A stretch of DNA of 45,285 bases, from assembly GCF_003003775.1 (NCBI RefSeq), contig NZ_PVWJ01000029.1:1-45285 (forward strand), written 5' to 3'. This stretch comes from Merismopedia glauca CCAP 1448/3. Lineage in GTDB: Bacteria; Cyanobacteriota; Cyanobacteriia; Cyanobacteriales; CCAP-1448. The notes beneath the pieces are model-generated. The model did not search any database, had not been told where the DNA came from, and saw only the letters and a program-made list of their open reading frames with translations. Below, piece after piece: positions 2,616-39,672 of this stretch (the first letter of the stretch is position 1; every line of letters begins with the position of its first letter). Position numbers and translations under genes: made by a program.

Positions 2616-2782
2616 AAGCTATGAGGAATTATATTATTAGTTCTATACCAATTCAACCCTTTCGCCTCTTTGTCAGCTTTCGATGGTTTGACTGAGAGTT
2701 CAAATTGAATCTTAGTCATAATCTGGGGATAAATCTCCTCTAGGGCTTGAGTAAGTTTCGCAGGATGATAGTCGTTATCTAT
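2606..2782 (-). pseudogene. Startless coding relic running from a MITE edge into tRNA-Pro
   Basis: On the minus strand one frame stays open for 58 codons, from the inner edge of the MITE-like element at 2783 to a TAG inside the first bases of tRNA-Pro. The translation has coding character (for example LTQALEEIYPQIMTKIQFEL, then KADKEAKGLNWYRTNN) but has no start codon or ribosome binding site, and the frame has no recognisable continuation beyond the element. I do not recognise the family. It is best read as the 3' tail of a gene whose 5' part was deleted or displaced. Confidence 0.4.
2690..2717 (+). other. Stem-loop in the leader of the reverse transcriptase region
   Basis: GACTGAGA pairs with TCTTAGTC (one G-U), extended inward by TTC/GAA around a short AT loop with one bulged G. 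It lies about 310 nt upstream of the reverse transcriptase start, where retrons usually encode their msr-msd RNA. It also lies inside the minus-strand coding relic, so it may be accidental. Confidence 0.25.
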
Positions 2783-2892
2783 AGATCTCTTGCAAAAGTA
2801 TTTGAGAAATCGCTCCCTTCCTACTTCTTCCCTCTTCCTTCTTCCTTCTTCCTTAACTCAACTAACAATTCTAGTATTTATGCAAGAGGTCT
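2783..2892. mobile_element. MITE-like element with about 22-bp terminal inverted repeats
   Basis: The ends read AGATCTCTTGCAAAAGTATT (from 2783) and, reverse-complemented, AGACCTCTTGCATAAATACT (from 2892), matching at most positions over about 22 bp. The 110-bp interior is non-coding and holds a pyrimidine heptamer repeat (CTTCCTT-like, about 2824-2855). TAT flanks both ends (2780-2782 and 2893-2895), a possible target duplication. The AGACCTCTTGCA motif resembles interspersed elements I associate with cyanobacterial genomes, but this was not searched. Confidence 0.6.
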
Positions 2893-2951
2893 TATCAAGA
2901 TGGTGCCATATTTGACTTATGATTCACCTCTTTGTCAAAAACCTATCCCTG

Positions 2952-2991
2952 TCAGGCTAAACCCGTCCCTACAAATCCTAAATTTGCCTGA
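2952..2991 (+). other. Hairpin just upstream of the reverse transcriptase
   Basis: TCAGGCTAAA (2952-2961) and TTTGCCTGA (2983-2991) form a stem with one bulged T around a 21-nt loop, ending 36 nt before the RT start codon. Together with the 2690-2717 stem-loop and an 11-bp direct repeat CCTCTTTGTCA (2665-2675, 2927-2937), it marks this leader as a candidate retron RNA locus. No convincing a1/a2 pair was found. Confidence 0.3.
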
Positions 2992-3027
2992 TAATATAGA
3001 TCGCCGTTCCCATTTGGCTCACTCCTT

Positions 3028-4431
3028 ATGACTGAACAACCAAGAACTCGCCAAGAACTCTACGATCGCATTCGTCAAACTGGTAAAGAAGAGTTTATCT
3101 TACAAGAGATGATCCGTTATGGATTTTGGCCAGCGCAAGGAGAAATACCCCAAGATCCAGCCGATGAAATTCGGCGCTTAGGAGAGTTAAATAGAGAATT
3201 ACAGCAGCTACACCAGCAAAACCGCCAGCTACATAATGAAGCCGCACTACGCAAGCAACTGCTAAAAGAACGGTTAGCTGAGTCGAAGCGCAAACAGCAA
3301 GAAACTAAAGAACGCCGAGAAAGAGAACGAAAAGAACGCGCTGAGGCTTGGAAGGCGAGAAAAGAGCAAGATATTCTGTTTTTAGGTCAAGGTGTATCGG
3401 GAGGACTCGATCGCAGAGAACCTAATTTAGAGAGGCTGCAAAACCAAAAATTACCTGTTTTTACCACCCCTGAATCCCTAGCTTCAGCAATGGGAGTTAC
3501 TATTGGTCAATTACGCTTTTTAGCATTTCACCGTCAAGTAGCTAAAACCTGCCACTACATTCGATTTTATATTTCTAAGAAAACTGGAGGGCAAAGGTTA
3601 ATCAGCGCCCCTATGCCCCGTTTAAAGCAGTTACAGCACTGGATTTTGCGGTACATCCTCAATCCGATTGCAGTTAATGATGCCGCCCACGGATTTCGCC
3701 AAGGTCATTCGATTTTAACTAATGCTACACCCCATGTTGGGGCTGATGTGGTGGTTAATTTTGATTTAAAAGACTTTTTTCCTTCAATTAGCTATAAACG
3801 AGTCAAAGGCTTATTTCAAGCCTTGGGATACGGGGAAGCGATCGCAACCATTTTAGGTTTATTGTGTACCTATCCCGATGTAGAAGAAGTAGAACTAGAT
3901 GGTTCAACTTACTACGTGGCGACTGGAGACAGACACCTACCCCAAGGTTCCCCAGCTAGTCCAGCAATTAGCAATATTTTGTGTCGTCGTTTAGATAGGC
4001 GTTTGCTGCAAATGGCGCAAGAATTAGGCTTTACTTACACTCGCTATGCAGACGATCTAACTTTTTCGGCAAGTGGAGACAACTTACGCAATATATGTAA
4101 CCTTTTAAAACGGACAGAGGCGATCGCACTTCACGAAGGGTTTGCTCTCAATCCTAGCAAAACCAGAATCATGCGGAAAAACTCTCAGCAGGAAGTCACG
4201 GGAATTGTCGTCAATCAATTTCCCAATATCTCCAAATCTACTTTGAAACGCTTCCGCGCTACTTTGTTTCAAATCGAGAGAGATGGAATCGCTGGGAAAA
4301 AATGGGGCAATTCCACCGATACAATGGCTGCTATCCAAGGATTTGCCCATTTTGTAGCTATGGTCAATCCTGAAGTGGGCACTAAATTTGTGGAACAAGT
4401 TAAGCAGATTCAAGCACAAAATAGAAATTAG
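3028..4431 (+). CDS. Retron-type reverse transcriptase with charged coiled-coil N-terminal extension
   Basis: This is a 467-aa RNA-directed DNA polymerase. The RT domain (about 165-430) shows the RT motifs in order: basic RLISAP-like block near 190, HGF at 221, FDLKDFFPS at 245-253, QGSPASP at 306-312, the catalytic YADD at 340-343, NPSKTRIM near 375 and VTG at 390-392. The last is a hallmark of retron RTs rather than group II intron RTs, and no maturase or HNH domain follows. Residues 45-115 are an unusual E/K/R/Q-rich predicted coiled coil, and the first 45 residues resemble no domain I know. Retrons make msDNA from an upstream RNA and usually act in phage defence with an effector; no effector is evident here. 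The start ATG has no strong SD. An unknown-group (UG/Abi-like) RT is an alternative, but the VTG motif argues for a retron. Confidence 0.8.
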   Translation: MTEQPRTRQELYDRIRQTGKEEFILQEMIRYGFWPAQGEIPQDPADEIRRLGELNRELQQLHQQNRQLHNEAALRKQLLKERLAESKRKQQETKERRERERKERAEAWKARKEQDILFLGQGVSGGLDRREPNLERLQNQKLPVFTTPESLASAMGVTIGQLRFLAFHRQVAKTCHYIRFYISKKTGGQRLISAPMPRLKQLQHWILRYILNPIAVNDAAHGFRQGHSILTNATPHVGADVVVNFDLKDFFPSISYKRVKGLFQALGYGEAIATILGLLCTYPDVEEVELDGSTYYVATGDRHLPQGSPASPAISNILCRRLDRRLLQMAQELGFTYTRYADDLTFSASGDNLRNICNLLKRTEAIALHEGFALNPSKTRIMRKNSQQEVTGIVVNQFPNISKSTLKRFRATLFQIERDGIAGKKWGNSTDTMAAIQGFAHFVAMVNPEVGTKFVEQVKQIQAQNRN

Positions 4432-5729: not shown

Positions 5730-5805
5730 AAGTCAGAAGTCAGAAGTCAGCGATTCCCAATTCCCAATTCCCAATTCCCAATTCCCGATTCCCGATTCCC
5801 AACAA
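5730..5805. repeat. Two adjoining short tandem repeats
   Basis: About three copies of AGAAGTC (5730-5749) are followed by about six copies of ATTCCCA / ATTCCCG (5752-5801). Such heptameric repeats are common between cyanobacterial genes. The array fills most of the gap between two convergent genes; no separate terminator is visible. Confidence 0.8.
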
Positions 5806-7861: not shown

Positions 7862-7900
7862 TCTTCCCCATACCCAATGCCCCATGCCCAATGCCCTAAT
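7862..7900. repeat. CCCAATG-type short tandem repeat between bioD and the sugar transferase
   Basis: Degenerate seven-to-eight base units (CCCATAC, CCAATGCC, CCATGCC, CAATGCCC) fill the gap and touch the 3' end of the sugar transferase gene, whose last codons lie at its border. Confidence 0.6.
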
Positions 7901-8930
7901 ACGCATTCGTTCCTTTAAACCAAACAAATACGGTTTTGAAGATAATTTCAAAATCCAAAGCCAAAGACCAGTTTTTCAGATACTCTAAATCGTAGTCTAC
8001 TCTCATTTTCATTTTATCAATTGTATCAGTTTCACCTCGCAATCCATTGACTTGTGCTAAACCAGTAATTCCTGGCTTCACTTTATGCCGCAGCATATAG
8101 CCATTAATTAATTTCCGATAATACTCATTATGAGCTACAGCATGGGGACGAGGACCAACGATACTCATTCTTCCCTGGATCACATTAAAGAATTGTGGGA
8201 GTTCATCTAACGAAGTACGGCGCAAAATTCTCCCAACTCTGGTAATGCGATCGTCTCCATCTTTAGTCGCTTGCGTTACTTTATCTCCATCTTCCATTAC
8301 CTTCATCGAACGAAACTTGTAAATAATAATTTCTTGACCATTAAATCCATAACGCCTTTGTTTGAAAATTACAGGTCCTGGAGAATCTATCATAATGGCA
8401 AGAGAAATAATCGCCATAATTGGTGCAAGTAGTACAAAAGCTACAACCCCAAAGATAATATCTACAGTCCTTTTAAGTAGATACTGAACTTCCGAAAATG
8501 GGACTTCCCAAAGAGCAATTACCGGAATACCCTTAATTTGGTAAGACCTGTAGTCCATAGCATTTAGATCTGCCATCCAAACATTAGGTACAAAGTAAAC
8601 ACAGGCAGTCGTATCTTGCAACTGTTCGATCAAGATTTTAATTTTATATTGGTCAGGAATTGAACTAGTAATATAGACAATATCAATGCTGTTTTGGCGG
8701 ACGTAATCAGGAATTTCTTTTAATTGACCAATTAATGTATTTCCTTGTGCACATCGAGGGGCTGGAGGAATGCGATCGTCAAAAAAACCAGATAATCTAA
8801 TTCCCAATTCAGGAGTTTGGGCTAATTGACGTGCTAAGTAATGACTAACTGGATTGAGTCCCACAATTATAGCAGAACGGCTATTTCTTCCAGATGCTCT
8901 TAGTTTTCTTAGAATCTGCCAAATCATCAA
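7896..8930 (-). CDS. Undecaprenyl-phosphate sugar phosphotransferase (WcaJ/CpsE-like), N-terminal membrane half missing
   Basis: The enzyme starts a polysaccharide repeat unit by moving a sugar-1-phosphate onto undecaprenyl phosphate. Seen here: a CoA-binding-like Rossmann part beginning SAIIVGLNPVSHYLARQLA, one hydrophobic helix (about 150-175), then the catalytic domain with GPVIFKQRRYGFNG, KFRSMKV, RRTSLDELPQFFNV and VGPRPHA, ending in the usual C-terminal KTVFVWFKGTNAY-like tail. Family members have about four N-terminal TM helices and 450-480 aa; this ORF has 344 aa. The same frame stays family-like upstream (SSEIFSSQILWSWVALF) to about 9010 and then hits TAG at 9047, with no TM-coding sequence beyond. 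The gene is therefore 5'-truncated. The catalytic half is intact and might still be made, since single-TM homologues exist, but no SD precedes the ATG. Confidence 0.8.
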   Translation of the reverse strand: MMIWQILRKLRASGRNSRSAIIVGLNPVSHYLARQLAQTPELGIRLSGFFDDRIPPAPRCAQGNTLIGQLKEIPDYVRQNSIDIVYITSSIPDQYKIKILIEQLQDTTACVYFVPNVWMADLNAMDYRSYQIKGIPVIALWEVPFSEVQYLLKRTVDIIFGVVAFVLLAPIMAIISLAIMIDSPGPVIFKQRRYGFNGQEIIIYKFRSMKVMEDGDKVTQATKDGDDRITRVGRILRRTSLDELPQFFNVIQGRMSIVGPRPHAVAHNEYYRKLINGYMLRHKVKPGITGLAQVNGLRGETDTIDKMKMRVDYDLEYLKNWSLALDFEIIFKTVFVWFKGTNAY

Positions 8931-20162: not shown

Positions 20163-20213
20163 TGGGAGTAGGGAATCGGGAATCGGGAGTAGGGAATCGG
20201 GGATTGGGAGTCG
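20163..20213. repeat. GGGAATC heptamer repeat abutting the gshA ribosome binding site
   Basis: About seven units of GGGAATC / GGGAGTA lie immediately upstream of the gshA SD. The array has no stop in the gshA frame, so it creates an apparent N-terminal extension (PIPDSLLPIPDSLL). Confidence 0.8.
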
Positions 20214-30968: not shown

Positions 30969-32186
30969 TCACATCAGATTCAGAGGATCGACATCAACTG
31001 TGAGACTCACAGATGGAGGGCAAAGCGATCGCCACTCTTCTATTTGTTCTAAACTTATTTTTACTTCCTCTGTCAACTTCAGTAGAATTTGCCAGCGATA
31101 GCGATTGGCTACTCTCATAATATTAGCTGGTGCAGGTCCCAAGACTTCTGAGGTAGAACCAAGTTCTAGGCTATTGAGTTTTTCTGCAACTCGTTCGGCT
31201 GTACTTTCCACAGCTTGAGAATTTAAGCTGCTGAATTTGAGCAAAATCAGCTTTCCATAGGGAGGATAATTCAGATCTGCCCGTTGCTCTAACTCAGTTT
31301 TAATGAAACTACTATATTCATGCTGCTGTACCGCCAAAATTACGGGATGTTCTGGAGTATAGGTTTGAATAACAACTTTTCCTGGTTCTTCCCCTCTTCC
31401 GGCTCTTCCTGCTACTTGAGTTAAGGTTTGAAAAGCTCTCTCTGCGGCTCGATAATCTGCCAAATACAATAACCCATCGGCAGCAACTACGCCCACAAAT
31501 GTAACTTGAGGCAAATCCAAACCTTTAGCCAGCATCTGCGTACCCACCAATAAATCGGCTTCACCACGGGCAAATTTGGTCAGCAAGTGCCCATGAGCGC
31601 CTTTGGTACGGGTGGTATCGCTATCGAAGCGCAAGCACCTTAATTGAGGAAATTCTTTGCCAATCTCTTCGACAATTTTTTGGGTTCCGCTACCAAAGAA
31701 CTTGAGGTAAGGAGAACTACATTCAGGGCAAGATTTAGGGTGAGAGCGAGTAAAGTTACAGTAATGACAGCGTAATAACTCTGGGGCATGAATTCCAGTG
31801 TGATGATACGACAAAGACACATCACAATGAGGACATTCAATTACATAACCACAACTGCGACAAGAAACAAAAGTACTGTGTCCCCGCCGATGGATGAATA
31901 AAATCCCTTGCTGTTGCATATTTTGCAGGTTTGTCAAAGCTGAATGCAAGGAACGGCTAAATATAGACCTATTTCCGCATTCTAACTCCCGACGCATATC
32001 TACCACTTCAATTGGCGGTAATGGGCGAGAATAGATTCTTTCGGGTAGAGAGAGATAGTATTTAACGACTTTTTGGCTGTCTAATATCGTTGTTTTTGGC
32101 GAAAAACTATCTAAACTCTGCTCCTGCGCTCCTCCGCTCCTCTGCCCCTCCGCTCTTCTGCCCCTCTGCTCCCTATCCCATCTTCA
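30969..32186 (-). CDS. priA: Primosomal protein N' (PriA), C-terminal part in a shifted frame
   Basis: This is the second half of the PriA replication-restart helicase. The frame is open from 32186. It contains the repeat, then family-typical SLPERIYSRPLPPIEVVDMR, helicase motif IV, the eight-Cys zinc module (CRSCGYVIECPHCDVSL, LRCHYC, CPEC), motif V (VGTQMLAKGLDLPQVTFV), motif VI (LTQVAGRAGRGEEPG) and the C-terminal domain ending VDVDPLNLM. The first in-frame GTG is at 32006, inside conserved sequence, so it is not a true start. It follows on from the upstream ORF in another frame, the change falling in a tandem repeat. Together the two ORFs make a complete PriA of normal domain order. Confidence 0.85.
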
Positions 32187-33610
32187 TAAAAATCAGCCCA
32201 AGTTTCCACCCCAGGAGTTGCAGAACCCAAAATCAGGGGACAGTTTTCTAATTCGGCACGCCAACGAGCTACTAGGCGAGCGTGGTAGGTAGGAGATGGT
32301 CTATCTTGTTTAAAGCTAGAATCGTGTTCTTCATCGAGGATAATCAATCCTATTTGGGGTAATGGCGCAAATACAGCGCTACGAGTGCCAATGACTACTT
32401 GAGGTTCGCCGTTCAGCATTTGTCGCCAGGTGTCATAGCGTTCTCCATCTCCTAAAGCGCTATGGTAAACGGAGACGCTAGAACCAAAGCGGGAGCGAAA
32501 TCTGGCTGTTAGTTGAGGAGTTAAGCCAATTTCTGGGACTAAAATCAAAGCTGACTTACCTTGAGCTAAAATAGGTGCGATCGCCTGTAAGTAAACTTCA
32601 GTTTTCCCGGAACCTGTCACCCCATGTAATAAGATTTTTGCGTAGTTCTCTAAACCGTTAATTACTTCTAAGGCTTGGGTTTGAGCTACAGTTAGATTGG
32701 TAAGAGTTCCCCCTAGCCAACCAGTTGGACTAGTTTCTAGGTTTTCTGCGGTTCCTAGTCTTAAAATTTCTCGTTCTTGGATGACTAGATAGCCTTTTTG
32801 AGCTAAAGCTTTGACTGTACTAGAACTAGTGTGACAAGCTGCGATTAACTCTGTCAGCCACATTTCTCCTCCCCGTCGCTTCAGCATCTGCAAAACTTCG
32901 GTTTGGCGAGAAGTTAGATCTAATGGCAAAGTATCTGTCACTAAAGTAGCAGATTGTTTCAGTTTGGGGCGAATTGGCTTGGGATGTTCTAAATAGCTAA
33001 TTACCCATCCCCGACGGGTTAAATCTCTGATTCCTGAAGCGATATTTTTGACTTGACGCTGTAAGTAGTTATAGCTGTAATCGGCTTCCGGTTTAGCTTG
33101 CAAAATCTCCAGGATTTTTCTAGCAGTAGGATTGAGGAAGGTATCTGCTCCTGTTGGTAGGGTAATATCTGGATTCAAACGAATTCTTCGTTGAGATTTA
33201 TCTAGCAATCCTGGTGGCAATGCAACTCTGACGACTGAAACTAGGGAACTACAGTAATAAGCAGCGACTTTTTCTAAAACTTGCCAATAAGATGCCGAAA
33301 ATAGACCACCACAGACGACATCTTCAATAGATTTAATGCGATCGCCCTCCAAATGAGGTGGTAGTGTGGAAACTAGACGAATGGCGATCGCCCCCACTAT
33401 CGCTGCACCAAAAGGAACGCTCAAAATATCGCCTGGTTGCACAGAAATATCAGCAGGAACGCTGTAAGTATACAATTCTCCTTCAACTCTGGGACAATCG
33501 ACCAATACCTCTACCCATTGCCCTACCAAAGCTGTTTCTATGTGATAAGCTGCATCAGGTTCTGCAACTACAGCCGCGCGATCGCACTTCCTGTTTTCCA
33601 TAATTTTCAT
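32111..33610 (-). CDS. priA: Primosomal protein N' (PriA), N-terminal part
   Basis: PriA reloads the replisome at stalled forks. This ORF carries the 3'-DNA-end-binding domain (about 25-130, VEVLVDCPRVEGELYTYSVP), the winged helix (about 160-290) and the first helicase lobe: Walker A LLHGVTGSGKTEVYLQA, Walker B LIILDEEHDSSFKQ, motif III LILGSATPG. After GVETWADFYEDGIG it enters the repeat, reads EERRGRGAEERR and stops at TAG 32113-32111. The rest of PriA lies just downstream in another frame. The gene is either inactive, rescued by frameshifting, or mis-assembled at the repeat. Confidence 0.85.
   Translation of the reverse strand: MKIMENRKCDRAAVVAEPDAAYHIETALVGQWVEVLVDCPRVEGELYTYSVPADISVQPGDILSVPFGAAIVGAIAIRLVSTLPPHLEGDRIKSIEDVVCGGLFSASYWQVLEKVAAYYCSSLVSVVRVALPPGLLDKSQRRIRLNPDITLPTGADTFLNPTARKILEILQAKPEADYSYNYLQRQVKNIASGIRDLTRRGWVISYLEHPKPIRPKLKQSATLVTDTLPLDLTSRQTEVLQMLKRRGGEMWLTELIAACHTSSSTVKALAQKGYLVIQEREILRLGTAENLETSPTGWLGGTLTNLTVAQTQALEVINGLENYAKILLHGVTGSGKTEVYLQAIAPILAQGKSALILVPEIGLTPQLTARFRSRFGSSVSVYHSALGDGERYDTWRQMLNGEPQVVIGTRSAVFAPLPQIGLIILDEEHDSSFKQDRPSPTYHARLVARWRAELENCPLILGSATPGVETWADFYEDGIGSRGAEERRGRGAEERRSRV
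32119..32172. repeat. G/A/C-rich tandem repeat that breaks the priA frame
   Basis: On the minus strand, units close to GGAGCAGAGG, GGAGCGGAGG and GGGGCAGAAG repeat about five times. Both priA half-frames are open across it, so the frame change must fall within it. It sits between motif III and the start of the second helicase lobe, where relatives have a short variable linker. Confidence 0.8.
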
Positions 33611-38548: not shown

Positions 38549-38662
38549 AAGTATGAATTGTTGATTGTTGATTGTTAATTGTTGATTGGTAATTAAATTT
38601 TCCTCTCCGTGTCCCCGTGTCCCCCAATCCCTAATCCCCAATCCCTAATCCCTAATCCCTAA
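38549..38662. repeat. Two heptamer arrays, the second running into the comB stop
   Basis: TTGATTG-type units (about 38549-38588) and CAATCCC/TAATCCC units (about 38623-38662) lie in the gap between tspO and comB. The second array encodes the last residues of ComB (LGIRD) and its stop codon. Confidence 0.8.
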
Positions 38663-39584: not shown

Positions 39585-39639
39585 CTATGGTTAATTTCAC
39601 AAGTAAGCTCCTCTAAAAATAAAAATTACATATTTGATT

Positions 39640-39672
39640 TCCCTTCTTCCCTCTTCCTTCTTCCTTCTTCCC
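39640..39672. repeat. CTTCTTCC pyrimidine heptamer repeat
   Basis: CTTCTTCC/CTCTTCC units lie just before the 3' end of the aspartyl protease gene. The same motif occurs inside the element at 2783-2892 and at 22527-22549, so it is dispersed through the window. Confidence 0.7.

Follow-up and report, generated by a model that had tools for sequence, protein, structure and literature searches.

A reading-frame break at a tandem repeat in priA of Merismopedia glauca and the repeat-bearing PriA loop of related cyanobacteria

Why should a gene for replication restart be written in two reading frames in a nearly complete cyanobacterial genome? The question is raised by the stretch of DNA analysed here (45,285 nt of Merismopedia glauca CCAP 1448/3; hereafter the window), in which a first-pass annotation had proposed that priA is split at a tandem repeat. 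This proposal is borne out by complementary matches of the two halves to PriA models, with the array in between (Table 1). The upstream half covers positions 1-422 of NF004066 (788 positions) and positions 1-149 of TIGR00595 (509 positions), and the downstream half, taken as 30969-32168, covers positions 415-788 and 150-509, respectively, so that together the halves span the whole of both models. The downstream half alone scores above the TIGR00595 cut-off and the upstream half alone below it; both remain below the cut-off of NF004066. No single continuous priA frame is present, as the frame differs by one across 32111-32186. These boundaries had been placed accurately, the two frames overlapping there on the array. 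The frame break is thus real in the assembled sequence. We take the N-terminal half to comprise the DNA-binding region and helicase lobe 1, and the C-terminal half the zinc region, helicase lobe 2 and the C-terminal region.

Table 1. Features of the split priA locus, in window coordinates
Feature	Position	Strand	Basis and details
priA N-terminal half, ending in LGSATPGVETW, repeat-coded residues and a stop	32111..33610	-	ORF of 499 aa; NF004066, TIGR00595
priA C-terminal half, in the other frame (one frame apart), open between 32183 and its stop, which ends at 30969	30969..32183	-	open frame; ORF 30969..32006 from GTG; NF004066
Inter-lobe linker, 101 nt, length mod 3 = 2	32091..32191	-	extracted from tblastn matches
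G-rich tandem array, 8-nt unit of the GGAGCAGA type	32116-32172 (57 nt)	-	TRF

In TRF the array has a period of 8, with 7.1 copies, 75% matches and 0% indels, and is scored also with periods of 16 and 24. The 8-nt unit places a non-triplet repeat at the frame transition, but the 24-nt reading scores best and is a multiple of three, and the non-triplet argument for the window therefore rests on the 8-nt reading. The half-frames had also been described as both open across the repeat. They are, but the composition of the array alone accounts for it: the units contain no T on the coding strand, stop codons are therefore impossible within them, and the array carries no stop in any of the three minus-strand frames. 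With all frames open, the overlap reflects the make-up of the repeat and gives no hint of a designed frameshift. The array is no chance formation, nor is its unit confined to priA. The motif GGRGCRGAGGRGCRGAGGRGC has 44 matches (overlapping ones counted) on 15 contigs of the genome and its reversed control pattern none, as in a dispersed short tandem unit of the STRR (short tandemly repeated repetitive sequence) kind. The motif occurs on 14 other contigs; on the eight of these that were examined, four arrays lie outside any ORF of at least 120 aa and four overlap one, three of them near the 5' end of the ORF and the fourth inside a 149-aa ORF. The window itself holds further heptamer arrays at 5753-5802, 20164-20213, 38622-38662 and 39639-39672.

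A second priA was not found among the 254 contigs of the source genome, a 5.2 Mb draft rated 99.97% complete. The next TIGR00595 matches score 53.5, 40.7 and 33.8 bits, where the cut-off lies at 230, and the open frames that contain them (1172, 822 and 676 aa) are presumably Mfd, RecG and UvrB. The downstream frame of priA offers no ATG, GTG or TTG before 32006, some 105 nt beyond the stop of the upstream ORF. As written, the allele would encode an N-terminal half protein only, and it is most likely inactive in replication restart, judging from its sequence. As the two halves are intact in all other respects, the break in the window is probably recent.

Two readings would nevertheless give a working protein from the broken gene. 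In one, each frame yields its own polypeptide and the pair assembles into a split but functional PriA. The inter-lobe loop would be a sensible place for such a split, but a start at 32006 would lose the segment YYLSLPERIYSRPLPPIEV, in which several residues are invariant among eight aligned relatives, and we regard this reading as very improbable. Re-initiation of the downstream frame was considered as a candidate and set aside, as its first start codon comes only at 32006. In the other reading, which had been put forward as a possible rescue, programmed or repeat-stimulated ribosomal frameshifting yields full-length PriA. The array is open in all three frames, and its G-rich units resemble ribosome-binding sequences, which also counts in favour of frameshifting. 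However, no slippery heptamer, whether of the canonical X_XXY_YYZ type or relaxed, occurs in 32111-32210, and a programmed -1 frameshift was rejected on this ground. Moreover, the linkers of the five genomes with such a break described below have lengths of 2, 1, 2, 1 and 1 modulo 3, which speaks against one programmed frameshift: the broken genomes would need different frame changes and their in-frame relatives none. A frame change is accordingly not conserved, since 368 of the 402 genomes surveyed keep one frame and the five broken ones differ among themselves. The rescue proposal finds no footing in these data, and frameshifting in any form seems hardly probable.

What kind of site has been broken becomes apparent from comparison with other PriA proteins. 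The break lies between LGSATP..ETW and YYLSLPER, where the loop in a solved PriA structure (4nl4) is six residues shorter than in a relative with a short linker (L022; G, L and C numbers are our own for genomes, loci and contigs). In an AlphaFold model of the PriA from locus L069, residues 486-513, between a helix at 479-490 and a strand at 515-520, have pLDDT values below 50, in a model of modest quality overall (mean pLDDT 64.4) in which the zinc region is low too. The C-terminal half is the best-conserved part of PriA in the alignment of eight relatives. In a first extraction of linkers the length was a multiple of three in 29 others with both halves (G001 counted twice, as L005 and L014); G001, the sole family relative of the window genome, thus has priA in frame. 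In a set of 80 loci, which partly overlaps the 402-genome survey and is not independent of it, 70 have both halves and all 70 are in frame across the linker, and the remaining 10 start within the linker or next to it. As this comparison shows, PriA in this cyanobacterial order possesses an inter-lobe surface loop that tolerates widely varied sequence and length.

This loop is frequently filled with repeats. Of 116 loci entered into a repeat count, 103 had both halves, and 93 linkers, the window included, were left after removal of duplicates; they share ancestry and are not independent observations. Two contigs of Mastigocoleus testarum BC008 carry priA with the same linker (L118 and L120), either a duplicate or an assembly overlap. 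The 93 linkers measure 27 to 321 nt (median 87), and TRF reports an array in 54 of them, compared with 7/93 and 3/93 in equal-length flanking coding controls and 10/93 in shuffled linkers. Ninety-one are in frame, the exceptions being the window and G023. The unit of the best array is not divisible by three in 40 of the 54, and the frame is kept in 39 of these; it is divisible by three in the other 14, of which 13 are in frame, the exception being the window, which is counted here because its 24-nt reading scores best. In some linkers, L221, L225 and L226 for instance, small palindromic pieces accompany or replace the arrays, and the linker of G284 (L152) consists of long in-frame repeats, 825 nt in frame within an open frame of 1115 aa. 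Purines prevail in the 5' half and pyrimidines in the 3' half of 71 of the 80 linkers that are at least 45 nt long (mean purine content 0.69 vs 0.42), among them L084, L086, L104 and L113. Predicted RNA hairpin folding reaches z < -2 in 19/80 linkers vs 5/80 coding controls, with mean z values of -1.21 and -0.46, respectively.

The break itself recurs. Our survey covered 402 genomes of the order (291 plus 111 more from one family), which were sorted by open-frame values, with short frames checked on fetched DNA. One frame crosses the linker in 368 genomes (a count obtained by subtraction). In five (the window genome G000, G023, G340, G351 and G380) the frame is broken in the linker but each half is open; in 16 a contig stops within the linker or directly next to it; in seven the PriA match is fragmentary for other reasons; and in four (G141, G274, G215 and G283) PriA was not found. 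The five are linker breaks only; matches that are split or bear stops inside the halves were listed too (for example G115, G175, G258, G270, G092 and G048). Kept apart from the five are G354, whose linker has stops and no array, G030 (61% complete), in which the frame breaks just past the linker, and G179, with several frame changes. In-frame congeners with other linker lengths and other repeats are available for three of the broken genomes, namely G316 for G351, G304 and G364 for G340, and G299, G337 and G363 for G380. The break in G380 lies in a contig of 7,782,641 bases, and in the surrounding 20 kb the ORFs are as long as in two controls. The linkers of G340 and G380 contain runs of seven C and five G, and a sequencing error is plausible there.

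Could the linker of the window truly be in frame, with the number of array units or a nearby base wrong in the draft? Contig ends cluster at the linker, which indicates that repeats trouble short-read assembly and thereby also feeds this explanation. In the set of 80 loci, 10 of the 17 contig ends that lie at most 4 kb upstream of the C-terminal half fall within 171 nt (binomial, 3e-10), whereas none of 11 comes that close on the downstream side, and to these may be added the 16 of 402 genomes whose contig stops at this point. The source genome, too, is a draft in 254 contigs, and arrays of GGRGCRGAGGRGCRGAGGRGC lie within about 170 nt of the first base of the contigs C33, C43 and C132. Against an error, the array in the window, at 57 nt, would fit within a read of ordinary length, and its longest run of a single base is four. 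Further, similar breaks are found in four other genomes, once amid ORFs as long as in the controls. Breaks in five lineages at the same site, one of them within a 7.8 Mb contig, make it less probable that an assembly error is the only cause. Among the window proteins scanned no further gene in two parts was noticed, neither among 20 proteins compared with Pfam (4/20 without a match at 1e-6) nor among 10 compared with NCBIfam (5/10 without a match, several shared with the Pfam set), a scan that amounts to a rough check and not to a frameshift census. On balance, we consider an assembly error a serious possibility, if a somewhat unlikely one.

Other genes of the window merit brief mention in their own right. 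At 7896-8930 lies a gene for a WcaJ-like sugar transferase whose match to the model begins only at position 114 of 453; upstream of the gene there are stops in all frames, and it is possibly truncated at the N-terminus. A retron-type reverse transcriptase is encoded at 3028-4431, its best match, below cut-off, being to the retron Ec67 family, and a small ORF (2747-3031) lies upstream of it. An ORF for a HerA-like ATPase and an adjoining ORF without a family match (70-2369) may form a defence pair.

Alternatively, the loss could be fixed, with a strain that lives without PriA and a priA that is a young pseudogene. The first-pass annotation had considered a clean knock-out unexpected, and the one frame kept across the linker in 368/402 genomes agrees with that expectation; yet in four of the 402 no PriA was found. 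One of these, G141, is a single contig judged 99% complete, and G285 of the same genus has PriA. A syntenic priA site was not found in G141, where the flanks of the G285 gene gave four short matches of 69-73% identity. PriA is also described as absent from some bacteria in the portion of PMC1193525 available to us, which counts for a fixed loss. In the window, however, both halves are otherwise open and match PriA models, and together with the frame kept by most of the order this renders a fixed loss rather unlikely. A search of open-licence literature gave nothing pertinent on the essentiality of priA in cyanobacteria.

A third possibility is a phase-variable or mixed locus, in which gain and loss of units toggles PriA and off-alleles exist beside on-alleles among the chromosome copies or in the population. 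Many cyanobacteria are polyploid. Non-triplet units suit such a locus, and 8-nt units fit, as do the fast turnover of linkers in length and repeat type between congeners and the recurrence of singleton breaks with intact halves. The array in the window is degenerate, however, at 75% matches, and slippage should therefore be slower. Moreover, the genes that usually vary in phase are those for surface or modification functions and not those for core replication, according to the accessible part of PMC3711429. We thus hold a phase-variable or mixed locus to be unlikely. Bolder still is the proposal that the inter-lobe loop is a natural contingency site, at which gain or loss of repeat units toggles replication restart and off-alleles are sheltered by many chromosome copies, so that the window and the four other genomes would represent the off state; this we regard as distinctly doubtful.

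We favour, as the probable explanation, a permissive loop that traps repeats within a gene under selection, of which the window allele would be in an out-of-frame length state. The loop, the repeats in it, the conserved frame and the recurrent breaks are directly apparent from the sequence comparisons, and the steps that connect them may be envisaged as follows. Short repeats dispersed in the genome, mostly tandem arrays of 7- to 9-nt units and sometimes small palindromic pieces, would settle in the PriA loop and there change in length by slippage; the presence and diversity of the arrays are observed, and insertion and slippage are what we infer from them. As most units are not multiples of three, gain or loss of a single one would break the frame of priA. 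Selection for a working PriA would then purge out-of-frame alleles, as the conservation of frame across relatives suggests.

Several components of this explanation are familiar from other systems. Dispersed G-rich repeats, in-frame insertions of small repeats and repeat-based phase variation are already known, from the parts of PMC4692102, PMC10969869 and PMC3711429 that were accessible. In Nostoc, short G-rich heptamer repeats are dispersed through the genome, about two thirds of them between genes, and the cyanobacterial STRR, which lie mostly between genes, resemble the repeats described here in their dispersed G-rich units of 7-9 nt and their variable copy number (PMC4692102, as far as available). 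The window differs from them in its 8-nt unit and in an array amid a core replication gene, and the repeats at the priA site vary from species to species. Rickettsia palindromic elements likewise are small repeats in frame inside protein-coding genes; these elements of about 150 bp integrate in many different genes (available text of PMC10969869), whereas priA has mostly tandem arrays that recur in one loop of one gene. With slipped-strand phase-variable genes, as treated in the accessible text of PMC3711429, the locus shares a non-triplet repeat at a frame transition. PriA, however, is not a surface or modification protein, and relatives use different repeats. Compared with PriA as represented by TIGR00595, NF004066 and 4nl4, the two window halves jointly cover the whole models; the cyanobacterial inter-lobe loop is longer and often filled with repeats, and in the window it is out of frame. 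No paper on repeats in the cyanobacterial PriA loop was found among the open-licence literature matches listed; in the available text the words PriA and primosom are absent from PMC3711429, and primosom and helicase from PMC4692102.

The finding calls for caution, as one assembly is too little for calling such a priA dead, and the repeat-filled loop accounts for one kind of broken priA gene, and of contig end, in sequence databases. For the biology of these cyanobacteria, it means that many species of an order have a core restart helicase with repeats in one loop that can break the frame, and that the frame appears to have been lost there repeatedly. The priA loop offers a natural test of how a gene is kept up, be it by purifying selection, by the shelter of chromosome copies or by switching.
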